In this document: positions 2,697-56,918 of the stretch, piece by piece
Layout of the letters: each line of letters starts with the position of its first letter
Numbering within the stretch: position 1 is the stretch's first letter
NCBI RefSeq assembly: GCF_023806625.1
Contig: NZ_JAMTDX010000051.1
Location: 72,810 to 129,727, forward strand
Direction: 5' to 3'
Source: Accumulibacter sp.
GTDB taxonomy: Bacteria > Pseudomonadota > Gammaproteobacteria > Burkholderiales > Rhodocyclaceae
DNA length: 56,918 bases
Notes under the pieces: generated by a model
Databases searched by the model: none
Told to the model about the DNA's origin: nothing
What the model saw: the letters and a program-made list of their open reading frames with translations, nothing else
Made by a program: the position numbers and the translations under genes

Positions 2697-3190
2697 GCGG
2701 AGGGCGTTCGCCGGCATCCCGTGACGCGCAGTCCGGAGTACAGACCTCGCCGAGACGACGGGCTCGTGAACTCGTTCTCCAGGGTCTGTACGAATGGCAG
2801 CTCAGCGGCAACGACGAGGCGGCCGTCGAGGCCGGGCTGCGCAGCAGCGACGGCTTCGATCGGGTCGACCGCGAGTTCTGCGTCGAACTGCTGCGCGGGG
2901 TGTTCGCCGAGGGCGAGCAACTCAAGGAGGAACTCCGGGGTCATCTCGACAGGCCCTTCGGCGAACTGTCGCCGATCGAGGCGAGCGTGCTGCTGGTTGG
3001 CGCCTTCGAGTTGCGGAACTGTCCGCAGACGCCTTATCGGGTGATCATCAACGAGTGCATCGAACTCGCCAAGACCTACGGGGGTACCGACGGTCACAAG
3101 TACGTCAATGGCGTTCTCGACAAGCTCGCTGCACGACTGCGGGTGGCCGAGGTCGAAGCCCGGCGCGCGGCGCGTGGCCGCCCCGGCTGA
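2693..3190 (+). CDS. nusB: Transcription antitermination factor NusB
   Basis: NusB binds boxA RNA with NusE (ribosomal protein S10) and supports antitermination at rRNA operons. This 165-aa protein has the all-helical NusB sequence: [16 protein letters not shown] near the N-terminus, [16 protein letters not shown] in the middle and the signature [17 protein letters not shown] near the C-terminus. Start at 2693 chosen because its ATGA overlaps the ribH stop. The last 15 residues are an Arg/Ala-rich tail. The ribH-nusB linkage supports the call. Confidence 0.95.
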
Positions 3191-8384: not shown

Positions 8385-8864
8385 ATGAACGAGTCCCTTC
8401 GCGAACGTGCGCTGCGCATGCTCGCCCGCCGCGAGTACAGCCGCCACGAACTGGCGGCAAAGCTCGGTGCTCTGGCTGGGTCCGCCGACCAGATGGCGTC
8501 TCTGCTCGACCAGTTGGCCGCCAGCGGCCTGCTCTCGGACGAGCGCTATGCGAGCGTGAGAGCGCGCTCGCGCGGTTCGAGGCTCGGCGACTCGAGGATC
8601 GCCCGGGAGTTGCGGGCACGCGGCGTCGACGATCGGCTGATCGCGCAGGCGCTGGCCACAGTCGAGGACGAGCTCACGCGAGCCCGCCACGTCTGGCGGA
8701 AGCGCTACGGTGATCCTCTTCCGGTGGCCACCGGGGATGTCGCCGAGCGAGCCCGGCAGTACCGTTTCCTGGTCTCGCGAGGCTTCTCCCACGAGACGAT
8801 CCGGCGCCTCATCGGCGCAGACTTCGAGGATGACGAGGTATGTCCGACAGGCAGAGCAGACTGA
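8385..8864 (+). CDS. recX: Regulatory protein RecX
   Basis: RecX binds RecA filaments and inhibits RecA ATPase and coprotease activity. The 159-aa protein has the family pattern of three-helix repeats: [43 protein letters not shown] and [19 protein letters not shown]. Start ATG 8385 chosen because it gives the conserved N-terminus; the same frame is open upstream without RecX similarity. It lies 127 nt after recA. Its 3' end overlaps the start of lptB by 25 nt, an unusual linkage. Confidence 0.9.
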
Positions 8865-9574
8865 CGACGCGCAGGCTGAACAAGCGCTACAAGGCGCGAA
8901 CGGTCGTCCATGACGTTTCCTTCGACGTCGTCAGCGGCGAAGTGGTCGGGCTGCTCGGGCCGAACGGCGCGGGAAAGACCACTTGCTTCTACATGGTCGT
9001 CGGCCTCATCGCCTGTGATGGTGGCGCCGTTCACCTCGACGACGTCGAGCTCACGCATCTGCCGATCCACCGACGTGCTCGCCTCGGAGTCTCGTATCTC
9101 CCGCAGGAGGCCTCCGTTTTCCGGAAGCTGACAGTCAGCGAGAACATTCGCGCAGTGCTCGAGTTGCAGCCGTTGTCGGGCGAAGAAATCGAGGCACGCG
9201 CGGAGAGACTGCTCGAGGAACTGCACATCGGCCACCTGCGCGCGAGCCCGGCGACGTCGCTTTCTGGAGGCGAGCGACGACGCGTCGAGATCGCCCGGGC
9301 GTTGGCCACCGAGCCACGGTTCATCCTCCTCGACGAGCCCTTCGCCGGAGTGGACCCGATCGCCGTTCTGGATATCCAGAAGATCATTCGCTTTCTGAAG
9401 GAACGAGGGATCGGTGTACTGATCACCGACCACAACGTGCGCGAGACGCTGGGCATCTGTGACCACGCCTACATCATCAACGAGGGTGGGGTGCTCGCTG
9501 CTGGCCGCCCGGACGAAATCATTTATAATGAAAACGTCCGGAAGGTGTATCTGGGCGAGAACTTTCGCCTCTGA
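8840..9574 (+). CDS. lptB: LPS export ABC transporter ATP-binding protein LptB
   Basis: ATPase of the LptB2FGC complex that extracts lipopolysaccharide from the inner membrane and drives it along the Lpt bridge. The 244-aa protein has Walker A GPNGAGKT (40-47), a Q-loop with [15 protein letters not shown], the ABC signature LSGGERRR, Walker [14 protein letters not shown] and switch His in [17 protein letters not shown] and the end [12 protein letters not shown] are LptB hallmarks. It is followed by rpoN as expected, but lptA and lptC, its usual upstream partners, are absent here and recX takes their place. Confidence 0.95.
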
Positions 9575-11091: not shown

Positions 11092-11418
11092 ATGAACCTG
11101 CAAGTCAGTGGACACCACCTCGAGATCACTCCGGCGTTGCGCGATTACGTGACAGGCAAGCTCGAACGGGTTGCCCGGCACTTTGACAACGTGATCGACA
11201 TCAGTGTGATCCTCTCGGTGGACAAGCTGAAACAGAAAGCTGAGGTGACCGTTCATCTTGCGGGCAAGGACGTCTATGTCGAATCCGTGGACGAAGACCT
11301 CTACGCGGCCATCGACGGACTGGCCGACAAGCTGGACCGCCAGGTCCAGAAGTACAAGCAGAAGCTGCAGGATCACCACCGCGGAAACAAGATCTCGGAC
11401 CACATCGGGGCCGAATGA
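11092..11418 (+). CDS. hpf: Ribosome hibernation promoting factor, short form
   Basis: Binds the 30S decoding region and promotes 100S ribosome dimers in stationary phase. The 108-aa protein has the HPF/YfiA fold sequence: [48 protein letters not shown] and [23 protein letters not shown]. It lacks the long C-terminal dimerisation domain of long HPF. ATG follows AAGGAGCC. It is positioned between rpoN and ptsN as in most gamma- and betaproteobacteria. Confidence 0.95.
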
Positions 11419-11521
11419 TCGATCGGCGGTCCGCGCAAGGCCGAACAGCCGGGGCCGTCGTCTGTTCCTTGCGTCCTGCTGTCCGAAGCCATCCACGTCC
11501 GCCTTTTCGGGTCTTTGTCGT

Positions 11522-11968
11522 ATGAGCCAGATCACCCAACTCCTCCCGCTCGAAAACATCCTCCTGGATCTCGAAGCGAGCAGCAAGAAGCGCGTTTTCG
11601 AGCACGTCGGGCTTCTTTTCGAAAACTATCTCGGGATCGCGCGCAGCACGGTTTTCGACAGTCTGTTCGCGCGTGAAAAGCTCGGCTCCACCGGCCTCGG
11701 ACAGGGGGTGGCCATACCGCACGGGCGGATCAAGGGCCTCCGGGACGCCACCGGAGCCTTTCTCCGCCTGGCTACGCCGGTGCCCTTCGATTCACCCGAC
11801 GGCAAGCCCGTTTCGCTGCTGTTCATCCTCCTGGTGCCCGAGGTCGCTACCGAGCAGCACCTGCAGATCCTCTCGGAACTGGCGCAGCACTTCTCGGACC
11901 GGACTTGCCGCGAGGCGCTGGCCAGAGCACCCGATGCAGCAACCGTCCGCAAGATCTTCGCCGATTGA
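11522..11968 (+). CDS. ptsN: Nitrogen-PTS EIIA component PtsN
   Basis: Regulatory EIIA of the nitrogen phosphotransferase system; it takes phosphate from NPr and controls potassium transport and other targets. The 148-aa protein has the PTS EIIA type-2 sequence with phosphorylated His67 in GVAIPHGRI, preceded by REKLGSTGLG and followed by VSLLFILLVPE. Start ATG 11522 gives MSQITQLLPLENI, the usual N-terminus. It is followed after 243 nt by hprK, which fits a regulatory PTS without sugar permeases in this window. Confidence 0.95.
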   Translation: MSQITQLLPLENILLDLEASSKKRVFEHVGLLFENYLGIARSTVFDSLFAREKLGSTGLGQGVAIPHGRIKGLRDATGAFLRLATPVPFDSPDGKPVSLLFILLVPEVATEQHLQILSELAQHFSDRTCREALARAPDAATVRKIFAD

Positions 11969-47725: not shown

Positions 47726-50521
47726 ATGCCGGCGAAGGAACGACTGGCCCGCCAGCAGATCGACCGCCTGCTGACCGCCGCGAACTGGTCCGTGCAGGAC
47801 CTGTGCGCTGTCGACCTGCGCGCTGCCCGCGGCGTCGCGCTGCGCGAATTTCCACTCGCCTCCGGCCATGGTTTCGCCGATTACCTGCTCTACGTCGACG
47901 GCCGCGCCGCCGGGGTCATCGAAGCGAAGAAGCCGGGCGCAACGCTGACCGGCGTCGAGACCCAGTCCGCACGCTACGCAGAGGGCTTGCCCGAAAACCT
48001 GCCTGCCTGGCTGCGTCCGCTGCCATTCGTCTACGAATCGACCGGCTTCGAGACGCACTTCACCGACGGTCTGGACCCCGAACCGCGCGCGCGCAGCGTC
48101 TTCGCCTTCCATCGCCCGGAAACGCTCGCTGAATGGCTCGCCGCGCAACCGCAGCCGCGCGCTTTCGGCACCGGCGCCGGTGGCATCGCCCGCGCAGCAG
48201 GCTTCGCCCCGGCGACCTTCCTCGCCCGTGTGCGCCAGATGCCGCCGCTGGTCACCGAATGGGGCGACTGCAAGCTCTGGCCGGCACAGATCACCGCCAT
48301 CCGCAACCTGGAGAAGAGCCTGGCCCAGAACAAGCCGCGCGCGCTGATCCAGATGGCCACCGGCAGCGGCAAGACCTTTACCGCCATCAGCTTCATCTAC
48401 CGGCTGATCAAGTTCGGAGACGCCAGGCGCGTACTGTTCCTGGTGGACCGCGGCAACCTCGGCCGGCAGACGAAGAAGGAGTTCGACCAGTACGTCTCGC
48501 CGGTCAACAACTACAAGTTCGGCGAGGAGTACATCGTCCAGCACCTCACCAGCAACAACTTCGACAAGACCGCCCGCGTGTGCATCAGCACCATCCAGCG
48601 CATGTACTCGATGCTCAAGGGCCGCGAGCTGCCGGAAGAAGCGGACGAAGAATCCACGGCAGCAGCGGAAAACCTGTTCAAGGAACCGGAGCCCATCGAC
48701 TACAACCCCGCGTTCCCGATCGAGACCTTCGACATCATCGTCACCGACGAGGCGCACCGCTCGATCTACAACCTGTGGCGCCAGGTGCTGGAGTACTTCG
48801 ACGCCACCCTCATCGGCCTGACCGCCACGCCCAACAGGCAGACCTTCGGCTTCTTCAACCAGAACCTGGTGATGGAGTACGGCCACCCGCAGGCGGTGGC
48901 CGACGGCGTGAACGTCAACTACGACGTCTACCGCATCAAGACCGAGGTCACCGAGGCCGGCAGCACCGTGGAAGCCGGCTACTGGCTGCAGGTGCTGGAC
49001 AAGCCCACCCGTGCCCGGCGCGACTGGCAGCTCGACGACGACTTCGCGTACGCACCTGAAGAGCTGGACCGCAGCGTGCAGACGCCCGACCAGATCCGCA
49101 CCATCGCCCGCACCTTGTACCAGCGCTGGCAGAGCGACCTCTTTCCGCAGCGGCAGGAGCTGCCCAAGACGCTGGTCTTCGCCAAGGACGACAACCACGC
49201 CGAGGCCATCGTCGGCATCCTGCGCGAGGAGTGGGGCCGCGGCAACGAGTTCGCACAGAAGATCACCTACCGCACCACGGGCAACAAGCCCGAAGAGCTG
49301 ATCAAGGCCTTCCGCACCAGCTACTACCCGCGCATCGCCGTCACCGTGGACATGATCGCCACCGGCACCGACATCAAGCCGGTGGAGATCGTCGTCTTCA
49401 TGCGCAGCGTGAAGAGCCGCAGCTTCTTCGAACAGATGAAGGGCCGCGGCGTGCGCGTGATCAAGGACGACGACCTGCGCGGCGTGAACCCCGGCGAGCA
49501 CGTGCACAAGGACCACTTTGTCATCGTCGACTGCGTGGGCGTGTGCGAGCGCGACAAGACCGACAGCCGGCCGATGGACCAGAAGAAGAGCGTCCCGCTG
49601 GCGGCGCTGCTGCAGGCCGTGAGCCTGGGCAACGTCGAGCCCGAGGTGCTCTCCAGCGTGGCCGTGCGCCTGGCGCGGCTGGACGGGCAGCTCAGCGACG
49701 CCGAACGGGCCAGGGTGGTGACGGAGGCCGGCGGCCTGGGCCTCAAGGAACTGTCGCGCGGCATCGTGCAGGCGCTGGACCCGCCGGGGTTGCATACGGA
49801 CCGCTCGCCGCAGGAGGCCGAGGCCGCGCTGCGTAACGCCGTCAAGCCGCTCTGCAACCCTACCCTGCGCACGCTGATCGTCACGCTGAAAGCCAGCAAG
49901 GAACTGGTGATCGACACCGTCACCGAGGACCGGGTGCTCGAAGCCGGCTTCTCCGCGGCCGCCCGCGAGCGCGCACAAGGCATCGTGCACAGCTTCGAGG
50001 CCTTCATCGCCGAGCACCGCGACGAGATCACCGCGCTCTCGATCCTCTACAACCGCCCGACCAGGGCGCCGCTGAAGTTCGACGACCTCAAGGCGCTGGC
50101 CGACACGCTGCAGGCCCCGCCGCACCTGTGGACCGAAAGCCAGCTCTGGCAGGCCTATGCCGCGCTGGACCAGAGCAAGGTGAAGGGTGCGAGCCGCCGC
50201 CGCATCCTCACCGACCTCGTCTCACTGGTGCGCTACGCGATGCACCAGGAGAACGAGCTGGTGCCTTACCCCGAGAAAGTCATGGCCAACTTCCGCGCCT
50301 GGATGGCGCAGCAGCAGGAGACGGGCAAAGGCTTCAGCGACGAGCAGCGCTGGTGGCTGGAGAAGATGGCCGAGCACATCGCCAGCAATCTCGGCATCGA
50401 GGCCGAGGACTTCGGCTACGCGCCGTTCGACCAGCGCGGCGGGCTGGGGCGGGTGCACCAGATCTTCGGGGCGGAGTTGCCGAAGGTCATCGAGGCCATG
50501 AACTCCGCGCTGGTGGCATAA
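47726..50521 (+). CDS. hsdR: Type I restriction endonuclease subunit R
   Basis: Motor and nuclease of a type I restriction-modification complex. The 931-aa protein has an N-terminal PD-(D/E)xK nuclease (FADYLLYVDGRAAGVIEAKK, about 50-70), an SF2 translocase with ATGSGKT (about 212), DEAH (about 345) and the motif VI QMKGRGVR (about 572), and a C-terminal EcoEI_R-type region ending EDFGYAPFDQRGGLGR. It starts the locus, with the methylase gene at the far end, eight genes downstream, so gene order is the reverse of the usual hsdMSR. Confidence 0.96.
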   Translation: MPAKERLARQQIDRLLTAANWSVQDLCAVDLRAARGVALREFPLASGHGFADYLLYVDGRAAGVIEAKKPGATLTGVETQSARYAEGLPENLPAWLRPLPFVYESTGFETHFTDGLDPEPRARSVFAFHRPETLAEWLAAQPQPRAFGTGAGGIARAAGFAPATFLARVRQMPPLVTEWGDCKLWPAQITAIRNLEKSLAQNKPRALIQMATGSGKTFTAISFIYRLIKFGDARRVLFLVDRGNLGRQTKKEFDQYVSPVNNYKFGEEYIVQHLTSNNFDKTARVCISTIQRMYSMLKGRELPEEADEESTAAAENLFKEPEPIDYNPAFPIETFDIIVTDEAHRSIYNLWRQVLEYFDATLIGLTATPNRQTFGFFNQNLVMEYGHPQAVADGVNVNYDVYRIKTEVTEAGSTVEAGYWLQVLDKPTRARRDWQLDDDFAYAPEELDRSVQTPDQIRTIARTLYQRWQSDLFPQRQELPKTLVFAKDDNHAEAIVGILREEWGRGNEFAQKITYRTTGNKPEELIKAFRTSYYPRIAVTVDMIATGTDIKPVEIVVFMRSVKSRSFFEQMKGRGVRVIKDDDLRGVNPGEHVHKDHFVIVDCVGVCERDKTDSRPMDQKKSVPLAALLQAVSLGNVEPEVLSSVAVRLARLDGQLSDAERARVVTEAGGLGLKELSRGIVQALDPPGLHTDRSPQEAEAALRNAVKPLCNPTLRTLIVTLKASKELVIDTVTEDRVLEAGFSAAARERAQGIVHSFEAFIAEHRDEITALSILYNRPTRAPLKFDDLKALADTLQAPPHLWTESQLWQAYAALDQSKVKGASRRRILTDLVSLVRYAMHQENELVPYPEKVMANFRAWMAQQQETGKGFSDEQRWWLEKMAEHIASNLGIEAEDFGYAPFDQRGGLGRVHQIFGAELPKVIEAMNSALVA

Positions 50522-50533
50522 TCGTCGCCGATC

Positions 50534-50857
50534 ATGGCCAGCATACTCAGCCCGCACATCACCGAGATTCCCGAACTCTGCCGCCGCTACGGCGTCGTGC
50601 GGCTGGAGCTGTTCGGTTCGGCGACTGGCGATTCCTTCGATCCCGAACGCAGCGACCTCGACTTTCTGGTGGGTTTCGACGAGAGCCCGGCCAATCTCTT
50701 CAATCGGTACTTCGGATTGAAAGAGTCGCTCGAAGCGCTCTACGGGCGTCACGTCGACCTGGTGATGATCACCGCCATGGAGAACCCTCATTTCATCGCG
50801 TCAGCGAACAAGACGCGGCAGATCGTCTATGCAGCCGAAGACAGCCAAGCTGCTTGA
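50534..50857 (+). CDS. MNT-type nucleotidyltransferase (MntA-like antitoxin)
   Basis: A 107-aa minimal nucleotidyltransferase with LELFGSATGDSF (about 25-36), SDLDFLV (Asp41, Asp43) and a third acidic residue in HVDLV (Asp75), the full catalytic triad. In MNT-HEPN (MntA-HepT) pairs the nucleotidyltransferase AMPylates and silences the HEPN RNase. It begins 12 nt after hsdR and overlaps the HEPN gene by 29 nt, so the pair is read with the restriction operon. Confidence 0.9.
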   Translation: MASILSPHITEIPELCRRYGVVRLELFGSATGDSFDPERSDLDFLVGFDESPANLFNRYFGLKESLEALYGRHVDLVMITAMENPHFIASANKTRQIVYAAEDSQAA

Positions 50858-51173
50858 CGACATCCGAGACGCCGCAGCCTTCATTCGCGAAGCCGTGCGC
50901 GACAGGACGATTGACGACTACCATGGCGACCGCCTTCTGCGGCAGGCGATCGAGCGCAATTTCGAGATCATCGGCGAAGCCATGAAGCGCCTCGGGCGGC
51001 ACGACCCCGCCTCGGTTGCCAGGATCGGCGACTACCGGCAGATCATCGCCTTCCGCAACATCCTCATTTACGGCTACGACCTCGTCGATCACCGGCTCGT
51101 CTGGAGCACGATCGAGGAGCAGGTTCCCGCACTGTTGAGCGATGTGGCCGCCCTGCTCGGGTCGGACGATTGA
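50829..51173 (+). CDS. HEPN (HepT/DUF86) toxin-like protein, catalytic His replaced by Tyr
   Basis: A 114-aa all-helical protein of the HepT/DUF86 family: LRQAIERNFEIIGEAMKRL (about 37-55) and IIAFRNILIYGYDLVDHRLVW (about 72-92). The family RNase motif is RX4HXY. Here it reads Arg76-N-I-L-I-Tyr81-G-Tyr83, so the catalytic His is Tyr while Arg76 and the Tyr normally AMPylated are kept. The codon is TAC at 51069-51071, one base from CAC. The protein may be an inactive toxin kept as partner of the nucleotidyltransferase, or a toxin with altered activity. Confidence 0.88.
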   Translation: MQPKTAKLLDDIRDAAAFIREAVRDRTIDDYHGDRLLRQAIERNFEIIGEAMKRLGRHDPASVARIGDYRQIIAFRNILIYGYDLVDHRLVWSTIEEQVPALLSDVAALLGSDD

Positions 51174-51227: not shown

Positions 51228-51345
51228 GAGGACTTCGAGGTGCCGCCGTTCAACCGGCGAGGGGCACTGGGGCGGGGGCAACAGCTCTTTGGGGGCGGGG
51301 TAGCCGAAGGTGATCGATGAGTTGAATCGGGGGCGGGTGGCGTGA
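51228..51345 (+). pseudogene. Remnant of a second hsdR 3' end, joined to hsdS
   Basis: Reading from 51228, EDFEVPPFNRRGALGR then QQLFG parallels the end of the intact hsdR in this window (EDFGYAPFDQRGGLGR then HQIFG). After a one-base insertion near 51295-51304 the next frame gives PKVIDELNRGRVA and a stop at 51343-51345, parallel to PKVIEAMNSALVA. The stop forms a GTGA overlap with the hsdS start, as an intact hsdR-hsdS pair would. The two tails differ at many positions, so it came from a different hsdR. Confidence 0.82.
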
Positions 51346-52607
51346 ACGCAGTGGGTGAACCGATCGCGGGAACGACTCGCGTCGTTCCGCTGATTGAAGC
51401 GGTTGAGCTGAATCCGCGACCTGATCGCGCTGCGCTATCCGATAGCCTGGAGGTGTCCTTCATTCCGATGGCGGCTGTTGAAGCTGGCTCGGGCCGCATG
51501 GATGCAACCGCGATCCGGCGGTTCGGCGAGGTCAAGAAGGGCTACACCACCTTCCGCGAAGGCGACGTGCTGTTCGCCAAGATCACGCCGTGCATGGAGA
51601 ATGGCAAGATGGCCGTTGCGCTTGGACTTCGCAACGGCGTCGGCTGTGGCTCAACCGAGTTTCATGTGCTGCGCCCGCGGCCGGGCGTCGATCCGCACTA
51701 CGTCTACCACTTCGTGTCGAGTGCGCGCCTCCGGGCAGAGGCTGCGCACCATATGACGGGCGCCGTTGGGCAGAAGCGCGTCCCGGCTGCGTTTCTTGAG
51801 CGGTGTGAGATTCCGCTGCCCGATCTGGATGAGCAGCGCCGCATCGTCGCCGAACTCGAAAAGCAGCTTTCCCGCCTCGACGAAGCCGTCGCCAACCTCA
51901 AGCGCGTCAAGGCATCACTCTCACGCTATCGCGCATCAGTCCTCGCTGATGCGGCGGGCCCGGCTGACGGCGCTTGGCCCAGCTGCGCGATTGGGAGTGT
52001 TCTGCGCGAGCCGATAGTCAATGGCTTGTCAGTGAAGGAGAGCCAGACACCAACCGACGTGCGCGCATTGCGTTTGAGCTCAATGTCCGAAGCGGGCTTG
52101 GATTACGGAGATCATCGGTTTCTGCCTCTGCAACCAAGCGCGGTCGACGATATCGTTGTGTGCGAGGGCGACTTCTTCGTATCCCGCGGGAATGGCAGTC
52201 TCGCGCTCGTTGGCCGTGGCAGCACCGCGCAGGCGCCTCCGTTCGCGGTCATCTTTCCTGACACGATGATGCGCTTGCGCTTCGCCGACATTGACGTCAC
52301 ACGATGGGTGGCGATGCTCTGGCCAAGTCGGCTGGTGCGACGGCAGATTGAGCAGCGGGTGAAGACAACCGCCGGTATCTACAAGATTGCGCAGCCGCAG
52401 GTGGCGTCGATCAGCATCCCGCTTCCCCCTGCCTCCGAGCGCGAGCGTATCGTCGCCGAAGTCGACCGCCGCCTGTCCATCGTCCGCGAGGTCGAGGCCG
52501 AGGTCGACGCCAACCTGAAGCGCGCGCAGGCGCTACGGCAGGCCGTGCTGGCCAAAGCATTTGCTGACAGGCCATCAGATCCGCCTCGCGAAGCGGCACG
52601 AGCATGA
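51342..52607 (+). CDS. hsdS: Type I restriction specificity subunit S
   Basis: Determines the DNA sequence recognised by the HsdRMS complex. The 421-aa protein has two target-recognition domains (about 12-165 and 212-375), each followed by a conserved helical spacer: LDEQRRIVAELEKQLSRLDEAV near 163 and SERERIVAEVDRRLSIVREVE near 376. TRD1 has REGDVLFAKITPCMENGK and QKRVPAAFLERCEIPLP. The GTG start lies in the overlap with the hsdR remnant. The stop overlaps the next gene by ATGA. The target sequence cannot be predicted from the protein. Confidence 0.92.
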   Translation: MNAVGEPIAGTTRVVPLIEAVELNPRPDRAALSDSLEVSFIPMAAVEAGSGRMDATAIRRFGEVKKGYTTFREGDVLFAKITPCMENGKMAVALGLRNGVGCGSTEFHVLRPRPGVDPHYVYHFVSSARLRAEAAHHMTGAVGQKRVPAAFLERCEIPLPDLDEQRRIVAELEKQLSRLDEAVANLKRVKASLSRYRASVLADAAGPADGAWPSCAIGSVLREPIVNGLSVKESQTPTDVRALRLSSMSEAGLDYGDHRFLPLQPSAVDDIVVCEGDFFVSRGNGSLALVGRGSTAQAPPFAVIFPDTMMRLRFADIDVTRWVAMLWPSRLVRRQIEQRVKTTAGIYKIAQPQVASISIPLPPASERERIVAEVDRRLSIVREVEAEVDANLKRAQALRQAVLAKAFADRPSDPPREAARA

Positions 52608-54511
52608 CGGCGGAGGAAGTTCTCACTCGTCTCGAGATCGGCGAGGACCAGGACGTCGAGTTCAAGCTCGCCGAGGGTGGCCTGCCGCGTTCGTTGTGGG
52701 AGTCGTTCTCGGCCTTCGCGAACACCGAAGGAGGCGTCATCGTCTTGGGCGTTGCCGAACAGGCCGAGCGCCACGAGCTCGTCGGCGTGCGCTCGCCGGC
52801 CAAGCTGCTCAAGGTGTTCTGGGATGCGCACCACAACCCCCAGAAGTTGAGTGCGCCGATCTGTGCCGACCGCGACGTGTCGGTAGTGCCTGCGGACGGC
52901 AGAGACCTGATCCTGATCCGCGTGCCCCGTGCCTCGCGCGCGCAGCGGCCGGTGTACATCAATGGCAACCCGATTACCGGCACGTTCAAGCGCAACTTCG
53001 AGGGCGACTACCGCTGCACCGAGGGCGAGGTCCGTCAGATGCTGCGCGACGCCAGCGACGAGCCGCAGGATGCGGCCATCCTCACGGGCTTCTCGCTGGC
53101 CGACCTCGACGCGGATTCGCTGAAGGCGTTTCGCAATCGCTTCGGCTCACGCGAGCCTGATCATCCCTTCCTCGCGCTGGACGACCGCGAACTGCTGCGA
53201 CAGCTAGGCGGCTGGCGGCGCGACCGTTCGTCCGGACAGGAAGGTCTGACGACGGCCGGCTTGCTGATGTTCGGTACCGAGCGCAGCCTGCTCGACGCGC
53301 TGCCGCACTACCACCTCGATTACCAGGAGCAGTTGTCAGCCGATCCCGATCAGCGCTGGACCTATCGGCTCACGGTGGACGGCAAGTGGGCCCCCAACCT
53401 GTTCAACTTCTACTATCGCGTCTACCCCCGCCTGGTCGACGGACTGGCGGTTCCGTTCAGGCTCGACGCGCGCGGCACGCGGGTCGACGAGACGCATGTC
53501 CACGAGGCGCTGCGCGAGGCGTTGGTGAACACGCTGATCCACGCCGACCATCAGTCCTCACGGCCGATCACGGTGATCAAGCGGCCGGATGCGTTCCTGT
53601 TCTATAACCCGGGCCGCCTGCGCATCCCGCGCGAGGCCTTGTACCAGGGCGGGGTCAGCGACCCGCGCAATCCAAGCCTGCAGAAGATGTTCCAGATGCT
53701 TGGGCTGGGCGAGAAGGCGGGCTCGGGCTTCCAGAAGATCCTGCGTGCCTGGCGCGAACAGCAATGGTTGATTCCGCTGGTGGCGGAACACCCGGGGCTG
53801 GAAATGACGCGGGTGTGGCTGCCGTTGGCCAGCATGATTCCCGCTGACGTGGAGCGTGAACTCAGGGCGGTGGTCGGGGCCGCGTACGACAGGGTCGACG
53901 ACCTGGGCCGAGTGATCCTGATGCTGGCGCACCGTTGCGACGAGATCGGGAACGCCGACGTCCAGCCCTACCGACCCGAGCACCCGCGCGACATCGGGGT
54001 GAGGCTCAGGCAGTTCGTCGAGGCTGGGTGGTTGGAAAAGAGCGGGCAAGGCCGTGGCACCCGGTACCGCTGGCCCGGGCAACGCCTGGGCGACTTGTTC
54101 GCTCCGGCAGCGCCCGGGGGCGAAGGCTTCGAACATTCGGCCGCCAGCTCCGAACAATTGACCGCCAGCTCCGAACAATTGACCGCCAGCTCCGAACAAT
54201 TGACCGCCAGCTCCGAACATCTGGATGGCGGGTCCGAACATCTGGAGTCCGAACAAGAGGACCGGTTGGCTGCACTGGCGGCGCCGATGCGCGAGTTGGG
54301 CAAGGTGCCCAAGGCACAGGCAGAAGACATCATCCTGGCGATGTGTTCGCAGCGGTGGCTGCCGCTTCGAACATTGGCGCGGCTGCTCGATCGCGCCCCG
54401 GACTCGCTGCGCAACCATTACATCAATCCAATGCTGCGCGACGGTCGGCTGCGTGCCCGCGTTCCTGGCAAGCCCAATCACCCGGGTCAGGCCTACAAAA
54501 CGAACAAATGA
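52604..54511 (+). CDS. AlbA_2 (Schlafen-like) / RecG-type ATPase putative regulator
   Basis: A 635-aa protein with an N-terminal AlbA_2 domain (EDQDVEFKLAEGGLPRSLWESF, AFANTEGGVIVLGV, about 12-120), a middle GHKL-like ATPase region of the HATPase_c_4 type (HEALREALVNTLIHADH, DAFLFYNPGRL, GEKAGSGFQKIL, about 300-385), a winged-helix part, a linker with tandem SSEQLTA repeats (about 514-540), and a C-terminal winged-helix-like domain. Such proteins are often found inside type I restriction operons; roles in regulation or defence are proposed but unproven. ATGA overlaps at both ends: with hsdS and with a truncated hsdM start. Confidence 0.82.
   Translation: MTAEEVLTRLEIGEDQDVEFKLAEGGLPRSLWESFSAFANTEGGVIVLGVAEQAERHELVGVRSPAKLLKVFWDAHHNPQKLSAPICADRDVSVVPADGRDLILIRVPRASRAQRPVYINGNPITGTFKRNFEGDYRCTEGEVRQMLRDASDEPQDAAILTGFSLADLDADSLKAFRNRFGSREPDHPFLALDDRELLRQLGGWRRDRSSGQEGLTTAGLLMFGTERSLLDALPHYHLDYQEQLSADPDQRWTYRLTVDGKWAPNLFNFYYRVYPRLVDGLAVPFRLDARGTRVDETHVHEALREALVNTLIHADHQSSRPITVIKRPDAFLFYNPGRLRIPREALYQGGVSDPRNPSLQKMFQMLGLGEKAGSGFQKILRAWREQQWLIPLVAEHPGLEMTRVWLPLASMIPADVERELRAVVGAAYDRVDDLGRVILMLAHRCDEIGNADVQPYRPEHPRDIGVRLRQFVEAGWLEKSGQGRGTRYRWPGQRLGDLFAPAAPGGEGFEHSAASSEQLTASSEQLTASSEQLTASSEHLDGGSEHLESEQEDRLAALAAPMRELGKVPKAQAEDIILAMCSQRWLPLRTLARLLDRAPDSLRNHYINPMLRDGRLRARVPGKPNHPGQAYKTNK
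54143..54226 (+). repeat. 21-bp in-frame tandem repeat, four units
   Basis: Units start at 54143, 54164, 54185 and 54206. The first three (GCCAGCTCCGAACAATTGACC) are identical and the fourth varies at its end. They encode ASSEQLT, and degenerate SEHL units continue to about 54252. Perfect 21-bp units can change number by slippage without breaking the frame. Confidence 0.95.
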
Positions 54512-54651
54512 ACGCCTCCACCCTCGTCCAGAAGCTCTGGAACTACTGCAACGGGCCACGGCTCGGACGGAGCGTCGCCGGTTCGCCGGCACGCGAGCAC
54601 GCAGGTGCTCGCGAGAAACCCCGCCTCACCCTGCGCGACGACGACAAATGA
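54508..54651 (+). pseudogene. hsdM 5' fragment, copy A, fused to an unrelated tail
   Basis: ATG 54508 overlaps the upstream stop by ATGA. The first 15 codons give MNASTLVQKLWNYCN, 41/45 bases identical to the intact hsdM start at 56081. The reading then leaves hsdM, runs through GPRLGRSVAGS to RDDDK and stops at 54649-54651, where its stop overlaps the ATG of copy B. The tail looks like the last codons of some lost gene that once preceded hsdM. It contains a perfect 9-bp inverted repeat (54592-54600 with 54605-54613, loop GCAG). Confidence 0.85.
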
Positions 54652-54740
54652 ACTCCGCGACCTTGGTTCAGAAACTGTGGAACTACTGCAATGTGCTGCG
54701 GGATGACGGCATGAGCTATGGCGACTACGTCGAGCAGCTC
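54648..54740 (+). pseudogene. hsdM 5' fragment, copy B
   Basis: MNSATLVQKLWNYCN then VLRDDGMSYGDYVEQL: 31 codons that match the intact HsdM N-terminus except at residues 3-4, 83/93 bases identical. A serine is coded AGC here and TCG in the intact gene, a three-base difference, so this is an older, separately evolved allele and not a fresh copy. At 54741 the sequence changes abruptly to the control region of the winged-helix gene. No methylase domain remains. Confidence 0.88.
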
Positions 54741-54846
54741 GCCGATTCTCGTTTCGCGAATCGGGAATGTCGACTGCAATCGTTTGACAATTGTCTGACT
54801 TATAGTTACTTTCGCATTTCGCAAAACGCGAAAGCACCAACGACTG
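54741..54846 (+). promoter_or_regulatory. Promoter/operator region of the winged-helix-nucleotidyltransferase pair
   Basis: An AT-richer stretch than its neighbours. It has a perfect -35 TTGACA (54784-54789) that overlaps the palindrome GACAATTGTC (54786-54795), and TATAGT at 54801-54806, which is too close to it for a standard pair; TACTTT at 54807 has the right 17-bp spacing but is a weak -10. CTTTCGC (54809-54815) and GCGAAAG (54828-54834) form an inverted repeat between promoter and ATG. CGATTC/GAATCG (54743-54763) with TTCGCGAA forms another. Repeated TTTCGC units suggest autorepression by the adjacent winged-helix protein. Confidence 0.6.
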
Positions 54847-55380
54847 ATGCGCCGTCCCGTCAACCGCCAGCTGGTCCTCAAGCCGCAGGATTTTGTCCTG
54901 TTGCTGGCGCTCGTCGGCGTCAAGGACGAGGTTCTGACCTACCCGGAACTGGCGACGCTCACCGGCCTTTCGATGTCCGAAGTCCATGGCGCGCTCAAGC
55001 GCGCCGAGGCTGCGCGCTTGCTGGCGTTCGTGGATCGTCGGCCGCGCGTCTTGACGCCGGCGTTCAAGGAATTCCTGGTCCACGGCGCCCGGTACGCCTT
55101 TCCTGCGGTACGGGGTGGAATCGTTGGCGGCGTGCCCACGGCCTATGCGGCAGCACCGCTTGACCGGCATATCGTGCCCTCCGGCGATCTGCCGCCGGTG
55201 TGGCCGCACGCCGCGGGCACGGTTCGCGGCGTGGCGCTGATGCCACTTTATCCCAGCACCCCGGATGCCGCGTTGCGCAACCCGGCGCTCTACGAGAATC
55301 TGGCCCTGTTCGACGCGATCCGCGCCGGCAGTGTCCGCGAGCGGAATCTCGCGGTCGAGATCTTTGAGGCGCGCCTGTGA
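54847..55380 (+). CDS. Winged-helix DNA-binding protein, likely antitoxin/autoregulator
   Basis: A 177-aa protein. Residues 10-75 form a MarR/winged-helix region: QDFVLLLALVGVKDEVLTYPELATLTGLSMSEVHGALKRAEAARLL, then RRPRVLTPAFKEFLVHGARYAFP. The C-terminal part (about 85-177) is a conserved-looking domain with YAAAPLDRHIVPSGDLPPVWPH and ALYENLALFDAIRAGSVRER. It precedes the nucleotidyltransferase gene with a GTGA overlap and has its own palindrome-rich leader. The arrangement resembles AbiEi-AbiEii-like toxin-antitoxin pairs, but the family was not recognised with certainty. Confidence 0.75.
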   Translation: MRRPVNRQLVLKPQDFVLLLALVGVKDEVLTYPELATLTGLSMSEVHGALKRAEAARLLAFVDRRPRVLTPAFKEFLVHGARYAFPAVRGGIVGGVPTAYAAAPLDRHIVPSGDLPPVWPHAAGTVRGVALMPLYPSTPDAALRNPALYENLALFDAIRAGSVRERNLAVEIFEARL

Positions 55381-56084
55381 GGCAACTCGATGCGAACCTG
55401 CCGCGCGTGGAACGGGTAGCCGAGGCGCTGGGTGAGCTGTGCGACGAGCTGGTGTTCGTCGGCGGTTGCGCAGCCGGTTTGCTGTGTACATCGCCGCAAT
55501 CGCCACCACCCCGGATGACCTGCGATGTGGACCTTGTCGCCGAGGTGGCGGCGCTGGCCGCCTGGCACGCGCTGGAAGCGCGTTTCGCGGCGCGCGGCTT
55601 CACCCGGGAGATGGCGCCTGAAGCGCCGATCTGCCGCTGGCGCGTTGGCGGGATCGAGGTCGATCTGATGCCGACCGACGAACGGGTACTTGGATTCGCG
55701 AACCGCTGGTATCCGCTGGCGATTGCCAGTGCGGTTCCGATGGTGTTGCCGAGCGGGCAGAGCATCCGGCTGATTTCGGCGCCGGCGTTCCTGGCGACGA
55801 AGTTCGAGGCTTTTTCCACGCGCGGCGGCGGCGACCCGCTGGCGAGCCACGACTTCGAGGACATCATCAACGTCATCGACGGGCGCCCGGGAATCGAGCG
55901 CGAAATTGCCCAGGCCAGCAGCGAGCTGCGCGACTATCTGGCCGATCGCTTCGCTGCCGTGCTGGCGCATCGCGACTTCGAGAACACGCTACCCGGCCTC
56001 GTCGCCTACGACGAGCTTTACGAAACCCGCATCGACACCGTCCGTCGACGCATCCAGACGATCGCGGAACTGAGCCGACCATGA
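55377..56084 (+). CDS. Nucleotidyltransferase, AbiEii/AbiGii-like
   Basis: A 235-aa protein with a nucleotidyltransferase fold: LVFVGGCAAGLL near residue 22, TCDVDLVAEV (paired Asp, near 48), GIEVDLMPTDERVLGF near 98, and SAPAFLATKFEAF with HDFEDIINVIDG near 163, as in AbiEii-type enzymes. GTG start overlaps the winged-helix stop (GTGA), and its own stop overlaps the hsdM ATG (ATGA), so translation of hsdM may be coupled to this toxin-like gene. Substrate and activity unknown. Confidence 0.8.
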   Translation: MRQLDANLPRVERVAEALGELCDELVFVGGCAAGLLCTSPQSPPPRMTCDVDLVAEVAALAAWHALEARFAARGFTREMAPEAPICRWRVGGIEVDLMPTDERVLGFANRWYPLAIASAVPMVLPSGQSIRLISAPAFLATKFEAFSTRGGGDPLASHDFEDIINVIDGRPGIEREIAQASSELRDYLADRFAAVLAHRDFENTLPGLVAYDELYETRIDTVRRRIQTIAELSRP

Positions 56085-56918
56085 ACGCCACCACCCTCGT
56101 CCAGAAACTGTGGAACTACTGCAATGTGCTGCGGGATGACGGGATGTCGTATGGCGACTACGTCGAGCAGCTCACCTACCTGCTGTTCCTCAAGATGGCC
56201 GACGAGCGCGGCCGCCCACCGTACAGCCAGCCGAGCCCCATTCCCGCGGCCTACGCCTGGCCGGCACTGCTCGCCAGGGACGGCGATGCGCTGTTCGACC
56301 ACTACCGCCACACGCTGGAAGAGCTCGGCAGGCAGCCGGGCACGCTGGCGCTGATCTTCGGCAAGGCGCAGAACAAGTTCCAGGACCCGGCCAAGCTGCG
56401 GCGCGTGATCGTCGACCTGATCGACGCCGAGAACTGGTCGGCGATGGGCGCCGACGTGAAGGGCGACGCCTACGAAGGCCTGCTGGAGCGCAACGCGCAG
56501 GACATCAAGTCCGGCGCCGGCCAGTACTTCACGCCGCGCGCGCTGATCCAGGCGATGGTGGACTGCATCGCGCCCAGGCCTGGCGAGCTGATCTGCGATC
56601 CGGCCTGCGGCACCGGCGGCTTCCTGTTCACCGCGCACCAGCACCTCACGCAGCACTACCCAAACCTCACCCGCGACGAGAAACGCCACCTCAAGGACGG
56701 CGCCTTCCGCGGCTGGGAGCTGGTGCAGGCCACCGCGCGCGTCTGCGCGATGAACCTGATGCTGCACGGCATAGGCTCGGAGAAGAGCGTGCCGGTGCGC
56801 GTGGCCGACGCGCTGGCGGCCGACCCCGGCGAGCGCTTCGACGTGGTACTGGCCAATCCGCCGTTCGGCAAGAAGAGCAGCACGATGATCGTCGGCGAGG
56901 ACGGCAGGACCTCCACCG
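56081..56918 (+). CDS. hsdM: Type I restriction-modification DNA methyltransferase subunit M (partial, C-terminus off right edge)
   Basis: N6-adenine methylase of the HsdRMS complex. 279 codons are visible. The N-terminal helical HsdM_N domain (about 1-140) begins MNATTLVQKLWNYCN, then the methylase domain shows GQYFTPRALIQAMVD, motif I DPACGTGGFL and motif IV NPPFG near residue 263. The frame is open to the window edge. The start is embedded in the nucleotidyltransferase stop. Two broken copies of this 5' end lie at 54508 and 54648. Confidence 0.95.
   Translation, partial: MNATTLVQKLWNYCNVLRDDGMSYGDYVEQLTYLLFLKMADERGRPPYSQPSPIPAAYAWPALLARDGDALFDHYRHTLEELGRQPGTLALIFGKAQNKFQDPAKLRRVIVDLIDAENWSAMGADVKGDAYEGLLERNAQDIKSGAGQYFTPRALIQAMVDCIAPRPGELICDPACGTGGFLFTAHQHLTQHYPNLTRDEKRHLKDGAFRGWELVQATARVCAMNLMLHGIGSEKSVPVRVADALAADPGERFDVVLANPPFGKKSSTMIVGEDGRTST

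Follow-up and report, generated by a model that had tools for sequence, protein, structure and literature searches.

Truncated hsdM starts in a type I restriction operon of Accumulibacter sp. as probable traces of successive accessory-gene insertions

Anti-phage genes are often embedded in the operons of other defence systems, and the route by which they entered is seldom visible. What such a route might leave behind is the question raised by a type I restriction-modification operon of Accumulibacter sp., in which hsdR, hsdS and hsdM are recognized together by Pfam and PADLOC. The operon lies at the end of a 56,918-nucleotide stretch (RefSeq assembly GCF_023806625.1, contig NZ_JAMTDX010000051.1, positions 72,810 to 129,727; the whole stretch is called the window here). 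For gene mapping, a codon-score caller was preferred to a map of longest open reading frames (ORFs), which was dropped. The order of the operon is hsdR, a minimal nucleotidyltransferase (MNT), HepT, hsdS, SLFN_AlbA_2, stub A, stub B, M21A, M21B, hsdM, where the stubs are two truncated copies of the hsdM start. We think it probable that these stubs record successive one-sided, homology-anchored insertions of accessory genes, each of which came with the end of a core hsd gene attached. The relevant part of the operon reads as follows (related loci carry handles beginning with L, genomes with G, contigs with C).

52604..54511, + strand: SLFN_AlbA_2 / HATPase_c_4 protein (Pfam), 635 aa, older accessory gene; ATGA overlap of its stop with the start of stub A
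54508..54552, + strand: stub A, hsdM codons 1-15; 41/45 nucleotides (nt) identical to the intact start
54553..54630, + strand: 78-nt hairpin-bearing insert of the stub A allele, replacing hsdM codon 16; same insert in the hsdM of L015 and in the L009 stub at 8505
54631..54642, + strand: hsdM codons 17-20 (LRDD), which close the stub A allele and lead into a join shared with L126 and L009
54508..54651, + strand: 47-codon ORF running through stub A, the insert and LRDD-DK, with a stop that overlaps the start codon of stub B
54648..54740, + strand: stub B, first 31 hsdM codons; 83/93 to the intact start, 86/93 to L126, 85/93 to L009
54741..54846, + strand: unrelated leader of the newest insert, the putative left junction of the M21AB insertion
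54847..55380, + strand: PDC-M21A, PADLOC candidate accessory gene (PADLOC E=3e-38; MarR_2 under its cut-off)
55377..56084, + strand: PDC-M21B, PADLOC candidate accessory gene (PADLOC E=2e-67); its stop overlaps the hsdM start
56081..56918, + strand: intact hsdM, first 838 nt (Pfam N6_Mtase, HsdM_N); remainder on contig C58

The presence of two truncated hsdM starts upstream of the intact one is far above chance: the next-best ungapped match on either strand of the window is 24/45 for the 45-nt query and 47/93 for the 93-nt query. A preliminary description, made from the sequence alone, had placed hsdM starts at 54508, 54648 and 56081, each overlapping the stop before it, and all of this holds, the SLFN_AlbA_2 gene ending at 54511, PDC-M21B at 56084, and the ATGA at stub B holding the stop of the 47-codon ORF that begins at stub A. 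It had also called the starts different alleles, pointing to a serine codon that is AGC in stub B and TCG in the intact gene; the codons are as described, and the comparisons given below support the claim. Two of its statements need refining. Stub A, described as 15 codons, does have codons 1-15, and codons 17-20 resume after the insert; the hsdM at 56081 has an intact start, the gene being cut by the end of the window and of contig C51 and continued in frame on C58, which begins with a 55-nt overlap to the C51 end. Local misassembly is an unlikely source of the layout because a similar one is found in independent assemblies, namely L009 (a Dechloromonas sp. SSD3 metagenome-assembled genome, or MAG, whose record is titled complete genome) and L126 (a one-contig genome of the window's genus). 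In genome G187 an hsdM start marks the break of two contigs (C104 at its end, C43 at its start), which might mean that the assembly was split by repeated starts.

Relatives of stub A were drawn from the 80 best homologous loci and from scans of 199 and 399 whole genomes. A 140-nt unit, consisting of stub A and the next 95 nt, stands directly before an hsdM start in L009 and L126, and related copies occur in L015, L169 and L170. In L015 (a Nitrospira sp. UBA2083 MAG) the stretch is an in-frame insert in a long, nearly full-length hsdM, the first ~10 codons of which differ; in the L009 stub at 8505 hsdM resumes after the insert and runs up to codon 63. Because hsdM continues past the insert in both, stub A is the start of an hsdM allele carrying the hairpin-bearing 78-nt insert and cut after codon 20. 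(Recurrence at hsdM starts had raised the suspicion that the 95 nt after codon 15 are an independent mobile repeat; this was rejected, the stretch being the insert within hsdM plus codons 17-20.) The join of the unit to the next hsdM start is identical in the window, L126 and L009, yet the unit is preceded by SLFN_AlbA_2 in the window and by YhcG in L126 and L009. The strongest hairpin of the insert is at 54592-54613, and the stretch after stub A folds overall no better than shuffled sequences (z -0.76 and -0.79). At E 1e-8 the stretch matches 4/399 genomes of the order (the window's own, G327, G571 and G208, the last through a 52-nt part at a locus with no hsdM start); the window's genome has one full copy and otherwise weak partial matches only. 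These matches, of ~40 nt, may belong to short palindromic repeats that form a family. The insert itself is found in frame after hsdM codon 15 (window 54553-54630; L015 ~3087-3164) and in several relic alleles. Rickettsia palindromic elements are short palindromes lying in frame within protein genes, and the insert of the stub A allele may be likened to them, although in another lineage.

Stub B finds its best outside matches in the hsdM tips of L126 and L009, and the genes so matched directly follow the stub-A unit. Since the differences sit almost all at third codon positions (all 8 against L009; six of 7 against L126, or 1, 0 and 6 by codon position), stub B was probably a working hsdM tip until recently. 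It is probably the tip of the former resident hsdM. The intact hsdM is apparently a mosaic, with the tip of a different allele on an L009-like body: identity to L009 is 83% over its first 120 nt and 99% over nt 241-360. Against the reference pair L169 and L009, the split is placed after nt 130, where 16/20 sites to the left match L169 and then only 14/160, and 0/1000 site permutations are as extreme. Eight reference pairs were run (two intended references being absent from the alignment); four gave 0/1000, another three 7, 9 and 26, and the pair L011/L126 206, the split point ranging from nt 69 to 169 across the other seven pairs. L169 also has M21AB before hsdM, and hsdM tips other than its own are equally close to the intact tip of the window. 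Within the leader that follows stub B, 54744-54846 matched the window's own DNA only, among the loci compared at that stage. The simplest history suggested by these comparisons is that M21AB, arriving together with an hsdM tip, interrupted the resident hsdM at about codon 31.

The proposed route would begin with an accessory gene arriving pre-joined to the 5' end of an hsdM copy. On the right side, the incoming part of hsdM would pair and recombine with the resident hsdM; on the left, the incoming DNA would join at an arbitrary point within it. The outcome would be one complete hsdM coupled to the new gene, with the first codons of the old hsdM staying to the left as a stub. The window would thus have started as hsdS-AlbA-hsdM, an event would have left stub A (the allele with the palindromic insert) before a new hsdM with a B-type tip, and M21A-M21B with its hsdM tip would then have entered near codon 31 of that gene to produce stub B. 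What is observed comprises the stubs with their variable ends, gene-ATGA-hsdM junctions in loci lacking stubs, the allele difference with the mosaic signal, and, in a few loci, mirror-image scars at the hsdR 3' end. We infer the homology-anchored illegitimate recombination step, the donor and the order in time; the change of allele within hsdM would fit one homologous junction, with the split varying with the references.

Is the window a singular case? Fragments of the first 200 hsdM codons were searched for within 8 kb upstream of hsdM in 80 loci (with at least 2 kb of upstream sequence in 71 and the full 8 kb in 51). They occur on the + strand in seven (L009, L010, L012, L014, L041, L055 and L086), and none is detected in the other 73 (9 of the 80 have less than 2 kb upstream), in keeping with the expectation that some relatives would carry hsdM stubs. 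No single fixed arrangement with stubs conserved as coding sequence emerges: the arrangements differ, and some stubs contain stops. When L126, L169, L172, L173 and the window, flagged by hsdM start searches, are added, the upstream + strand fragments of the 12 loci fall within codons 1-157 of ~500, the exception being a piece of the C-terminal part (codons 446-486) that L014 carries between its two hsdM genes. Fragments end at codons of about 20, 22, 31, 35, 36, 63, 92, 95, 97, 102, 109 and 157, and this scatter speaks against a fixed insertion site. One YhcG gene, whose copies are 91-93% identical, meets hsdM at codon 63, 109 or 157, in the last case an internal hsdM piece (codons 71-157). 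Stub ends scatter and run into unlike leaders, as might be expected of an illegitimate junction without long homology, a picture that later deletion at the ends may also have given. The long array at L014 5085-17050 contains six hsdM fragments and several toxin-antitoxin-like genes besides two hsdM genes, of which one is complete and the other is cut by the contig end. At L171 2618-3124 the start of another gene, by position the partner of a nucleotidyltransferase, is fused in frame to hsdM codons 71-157, as if by a deletion between cassettes.

The origin of the stubs was compared for 16 of them, leaving out L175 (no intact partner) and L057 (a downstream fragment); L010/L171, L086/L127 and L095/L126 are same-locus pairs. 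Nine are matched at least as well by the hsdM of other genomes as by their own (both in the window, both in L126, both in L009, and those of L012, L169 and L173), where comparisons over 45 nt are coarse. Arrival from another allele is thus well backed for the window and some loci, and not for all.

Collapsing identical hsdM genes reduces 129 to 111, and the window's gene makes 112, of which 26 are without an assignable upstream gene. The genes standing just upstream of hsdM in the 86 assigned loci fall into 21 groups (some of them single short ORFs), the largest being the M21B family (32), a 140-aa family (12) and an SLFN_AlbA_2 gene group (8). The 140-aa family, provisionally labelled HEPN-like, has no Pfam match; in L086 its neighbour is a Polbeta nucleotidyltransferase. 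A 358-aa gene provisionally called RhuM was reassigned, Pfam showing YhcG/DUF1016. As had been anticipated, different accessory genes end at ATGA-hsdM: the 4-nt overlap is present in 37 of the 86 loci (29 directly, and 8 with the start codon read two codons further upstream), a count at which the overlap was rejected as a universal rule. The M21B family has it in 18/32 loci, 14 of these 18 being among the 80 searched and without a fragment. In L014 a 77% identical homologue of the window's SLFN_AlbA_2 gene stops at this ATGA too, there with an intact hsdM behind it. Because gene-hsdM junctions exist in stub-free loci, it may be argued that the junction travels with the gene.

Mirror-image scars, with fragments that reach the last codon of hsdR, lie downstream of an intact hsdR in four loci.

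L064, 6390-6482, hsdM-forward orientation: hsdR 3' fragment, 92/96 nt
L169, 5779-5967, hsdM-forward orientation: hsdR 3' fragment, 118/192 nt
L172, 6877-7020, hsdM-forward orientation: hsdR 3' fragment, 117/147 nt
L129, 9578-9724, hsdM-forward orientation: hsdR 3' fragment, 134/150 nt

Accessory genes stand between hsdR and the fragment in L064, L169 and L172, the last two of which carry hsdM and hsdR scars alike; the fragment of L129 lies beyond hsdM and needs another history. (An internal hsdR-like match in L043 and L132, apparently the same locus, is excluded from the count.) Such mirror-image scars suggest that scarring is not special to hsdM starts. They occur in 1/39 unselected loci with hsdR (L064) and in 3/10 selected ones (L169, L172 and L129), the latter rate being biased because those loci were picked for hsdM starts or stubs. 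In L129, three ORFs (1-150, 9306-9479 and 11374-11808) end in one short C-terminal segment (AGMVGAVTVR), and one of them is a shortened M21B, 79% identical to that of the window.

Several points weigh against a history of one-sided insertions. The mosaic split point depends on the references, the L011/L126 pair gave 206/1000, site permutation ignores rate differences along hsdM, L169 has a generally divergent hsdM body, and the deviant tip could be the one shared by L009, L126 and stub B instead of that of the intact gene. No near-identical donor was found, M21AB of L169 being just 56 and 49% identical to the window's. Over the 86 hsdM genes the tip allele (positions 1-120) is unlinked to the cassette family, 786/2000 label permutations being as extreme, so that a general link between the two was rejected; of seven stretches tested, only 121-240 is low (37/2000). 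Upstream in L012 there is a weak opposite-strand match to hsdM codons 425-449, and the hsdR scar is rare in the unselected set. Finally, L014 looks like local duplication, and for 7/16 stubs the closest match is the hsdM downstream in the same locus (L010, L014 twice, L041, L055, L127 and L172), as duplication in place or conversion at a later time would also predict. The claim that an incoming cassette brings its own hsdM start is therefore supported for the window, where the tip allele differs from stub B and the body is L009-like, and is not supported as a general rule, given those seven stubs and the tip alleles that do not follow cassette family.

Local duplication with decay is the likeliest of the alternatives, although we judge it a good deal less probable than insertion. 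Tandem cassette-hsdM units, formed in place or through the single crossover of a circle, would have had their extra hsdM copies deleted from the 3' side. The complete hsdM, C-terminal hsdM fragment and further hsdM of L014, and its four starts, all with the same unusual residue, are what such a process could produce, as are the seven stubs closest to their own hsdM; it accounts poorly for the nine matched at least equally by other genomes, for the gene after each stub differing from the gene before, and for + strand upstream remnants that, the L014 piece aside, stop by codon 157 in 12 loci.

Retention of the stubs for a function, whether as short relay ORFs that keep translation of the operon coupled or as peptides resembling HsdM, is improbable. 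The length of the 47-codon ORF, which links stub A with the ATGA that follows, is indeed the same in three genomes (window, L126 and L009), and in L126 and L171 the ORFs of stubs overlap the gene behind them; the stubs may play a part in holding translation coupled. Yet the changed codons of the stub A ORF are mostly nonsynonymous (10/12, 7/9, 14/15), stops occur inside or soon after stubs in L041, L127 and L169, and 73/80 loci do without a detected fragment; because of the nonsynonymous differences and the stops, the stubs would seem to be relics. The least probable reading, to which we give very little credence, is site-specific integration at the hsdM 5' end in the manner of islands that regenerate a target gene end, which would explain the recurrence of one gene end, the restored target and the second copy of its end beyond the insert, but not stub ends scattered from ~codon 20 to 157 in place of a fixed core, nor the lack of any recombinase recognized by Pfam among eight window proteins and nine from relatives (the inserts scanned).

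A further-reaching reading, which we regard as speculative and rather doubtful, would make the hsdM 5' end and the mirror hsdR 3' end the reusable docking arms of a recombinase-free cassette array. New genes would enter beside the intact core gene, older ones would be pushed towards hsdS behind a stub, and the stubs would serve as homology arms for stacking, movement between genomes, and loss.

Embedding as such is known. Accessory toxin, toxin-antitoxin or type IV genes sit between hsd genes, as with PrrC in EcoprrI, TgvAB in V. cholerae VPI-2 and DarTG2 in the RptR island, and the RptR paper, one of the four, terms the hsdS-hsdR gap a potential recombination hotspot (PMC12707154, PMC3874165, PMC11411939, PMC12255303). 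These operons are like that of the window in their embedded genes; the available passages describe no partial copies of hsd ends at the junctions, whereas the window has such scars. Homology-facilitated illegitimate recombination, with one homologous and one illegitimate end (PMC3240628), would give the same junction pattern as that proposed here, the difference being that ours is read from natural scars that recur within a single operon. Toxin modules, MNT-HEPN among them, are described beside restriction genes, with MNT before HEPN (PMC3710099); the same kinds of accessory gene, MNT first, occur in the window, and the published passages at hand treat the neighbourhood and not the insertion route. 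The literature searched, on genes or fragments in hsd operons and also on the recombination process and on palindromes, with many subscription papers outside its reach, gave no description of hsdM stubs, and the part on hsd operons gave none of end-duplication scars. Such scars suggest the side, the order and the junction type of an insertion, and so offer a clue to how such operons gain genes. A simple scan for hsdM 5' and hsdR 3' fragments could map such insertions across genomes and point to candidate defence cassettes.

The remaining genes of the operon are these.

47726..50521, + strand: hsdR, restriction subunit, 931 aa (Pfam EcoEI_R_C, ResIII, HSDR_N)
50534..50857, + strand: MNT (PADLOC PDC-S09), of an accessory pair between hsdR and hsdS (Pfam NTP_transf_2; PADLOC)
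50829..51173, + strand: HepT-like (HEPN) partner of the nucleotidyltransferase (Pfam PF01934)
51342..52607, + strand: hsdS, specificity subunit (Pfam Methylase_S; PADLOC Specificity_I)

The hsdS start may be internal, the codon-score caller having chosen 51498. The embedded non-hsd genes, all on the strand of the operon, are thus MNT-HepT between hsdR and hsdS, and SLFN_AlbA_2 with M21AB between hsdS and hsdM. They are probably defence-related, a reading to which PADLOC contributes candidate names only. PDC-M21A perhaps encodes a winged-helix regulator; PDC-M21B has no Pfam family match, and a nucleotidyltransferase is a guess at its product. The C-terminal part of the SLFN_AlbA_2 gene contains a short in-frame tandem repeat of SEQLTAS-like units (window ~54140-54250).

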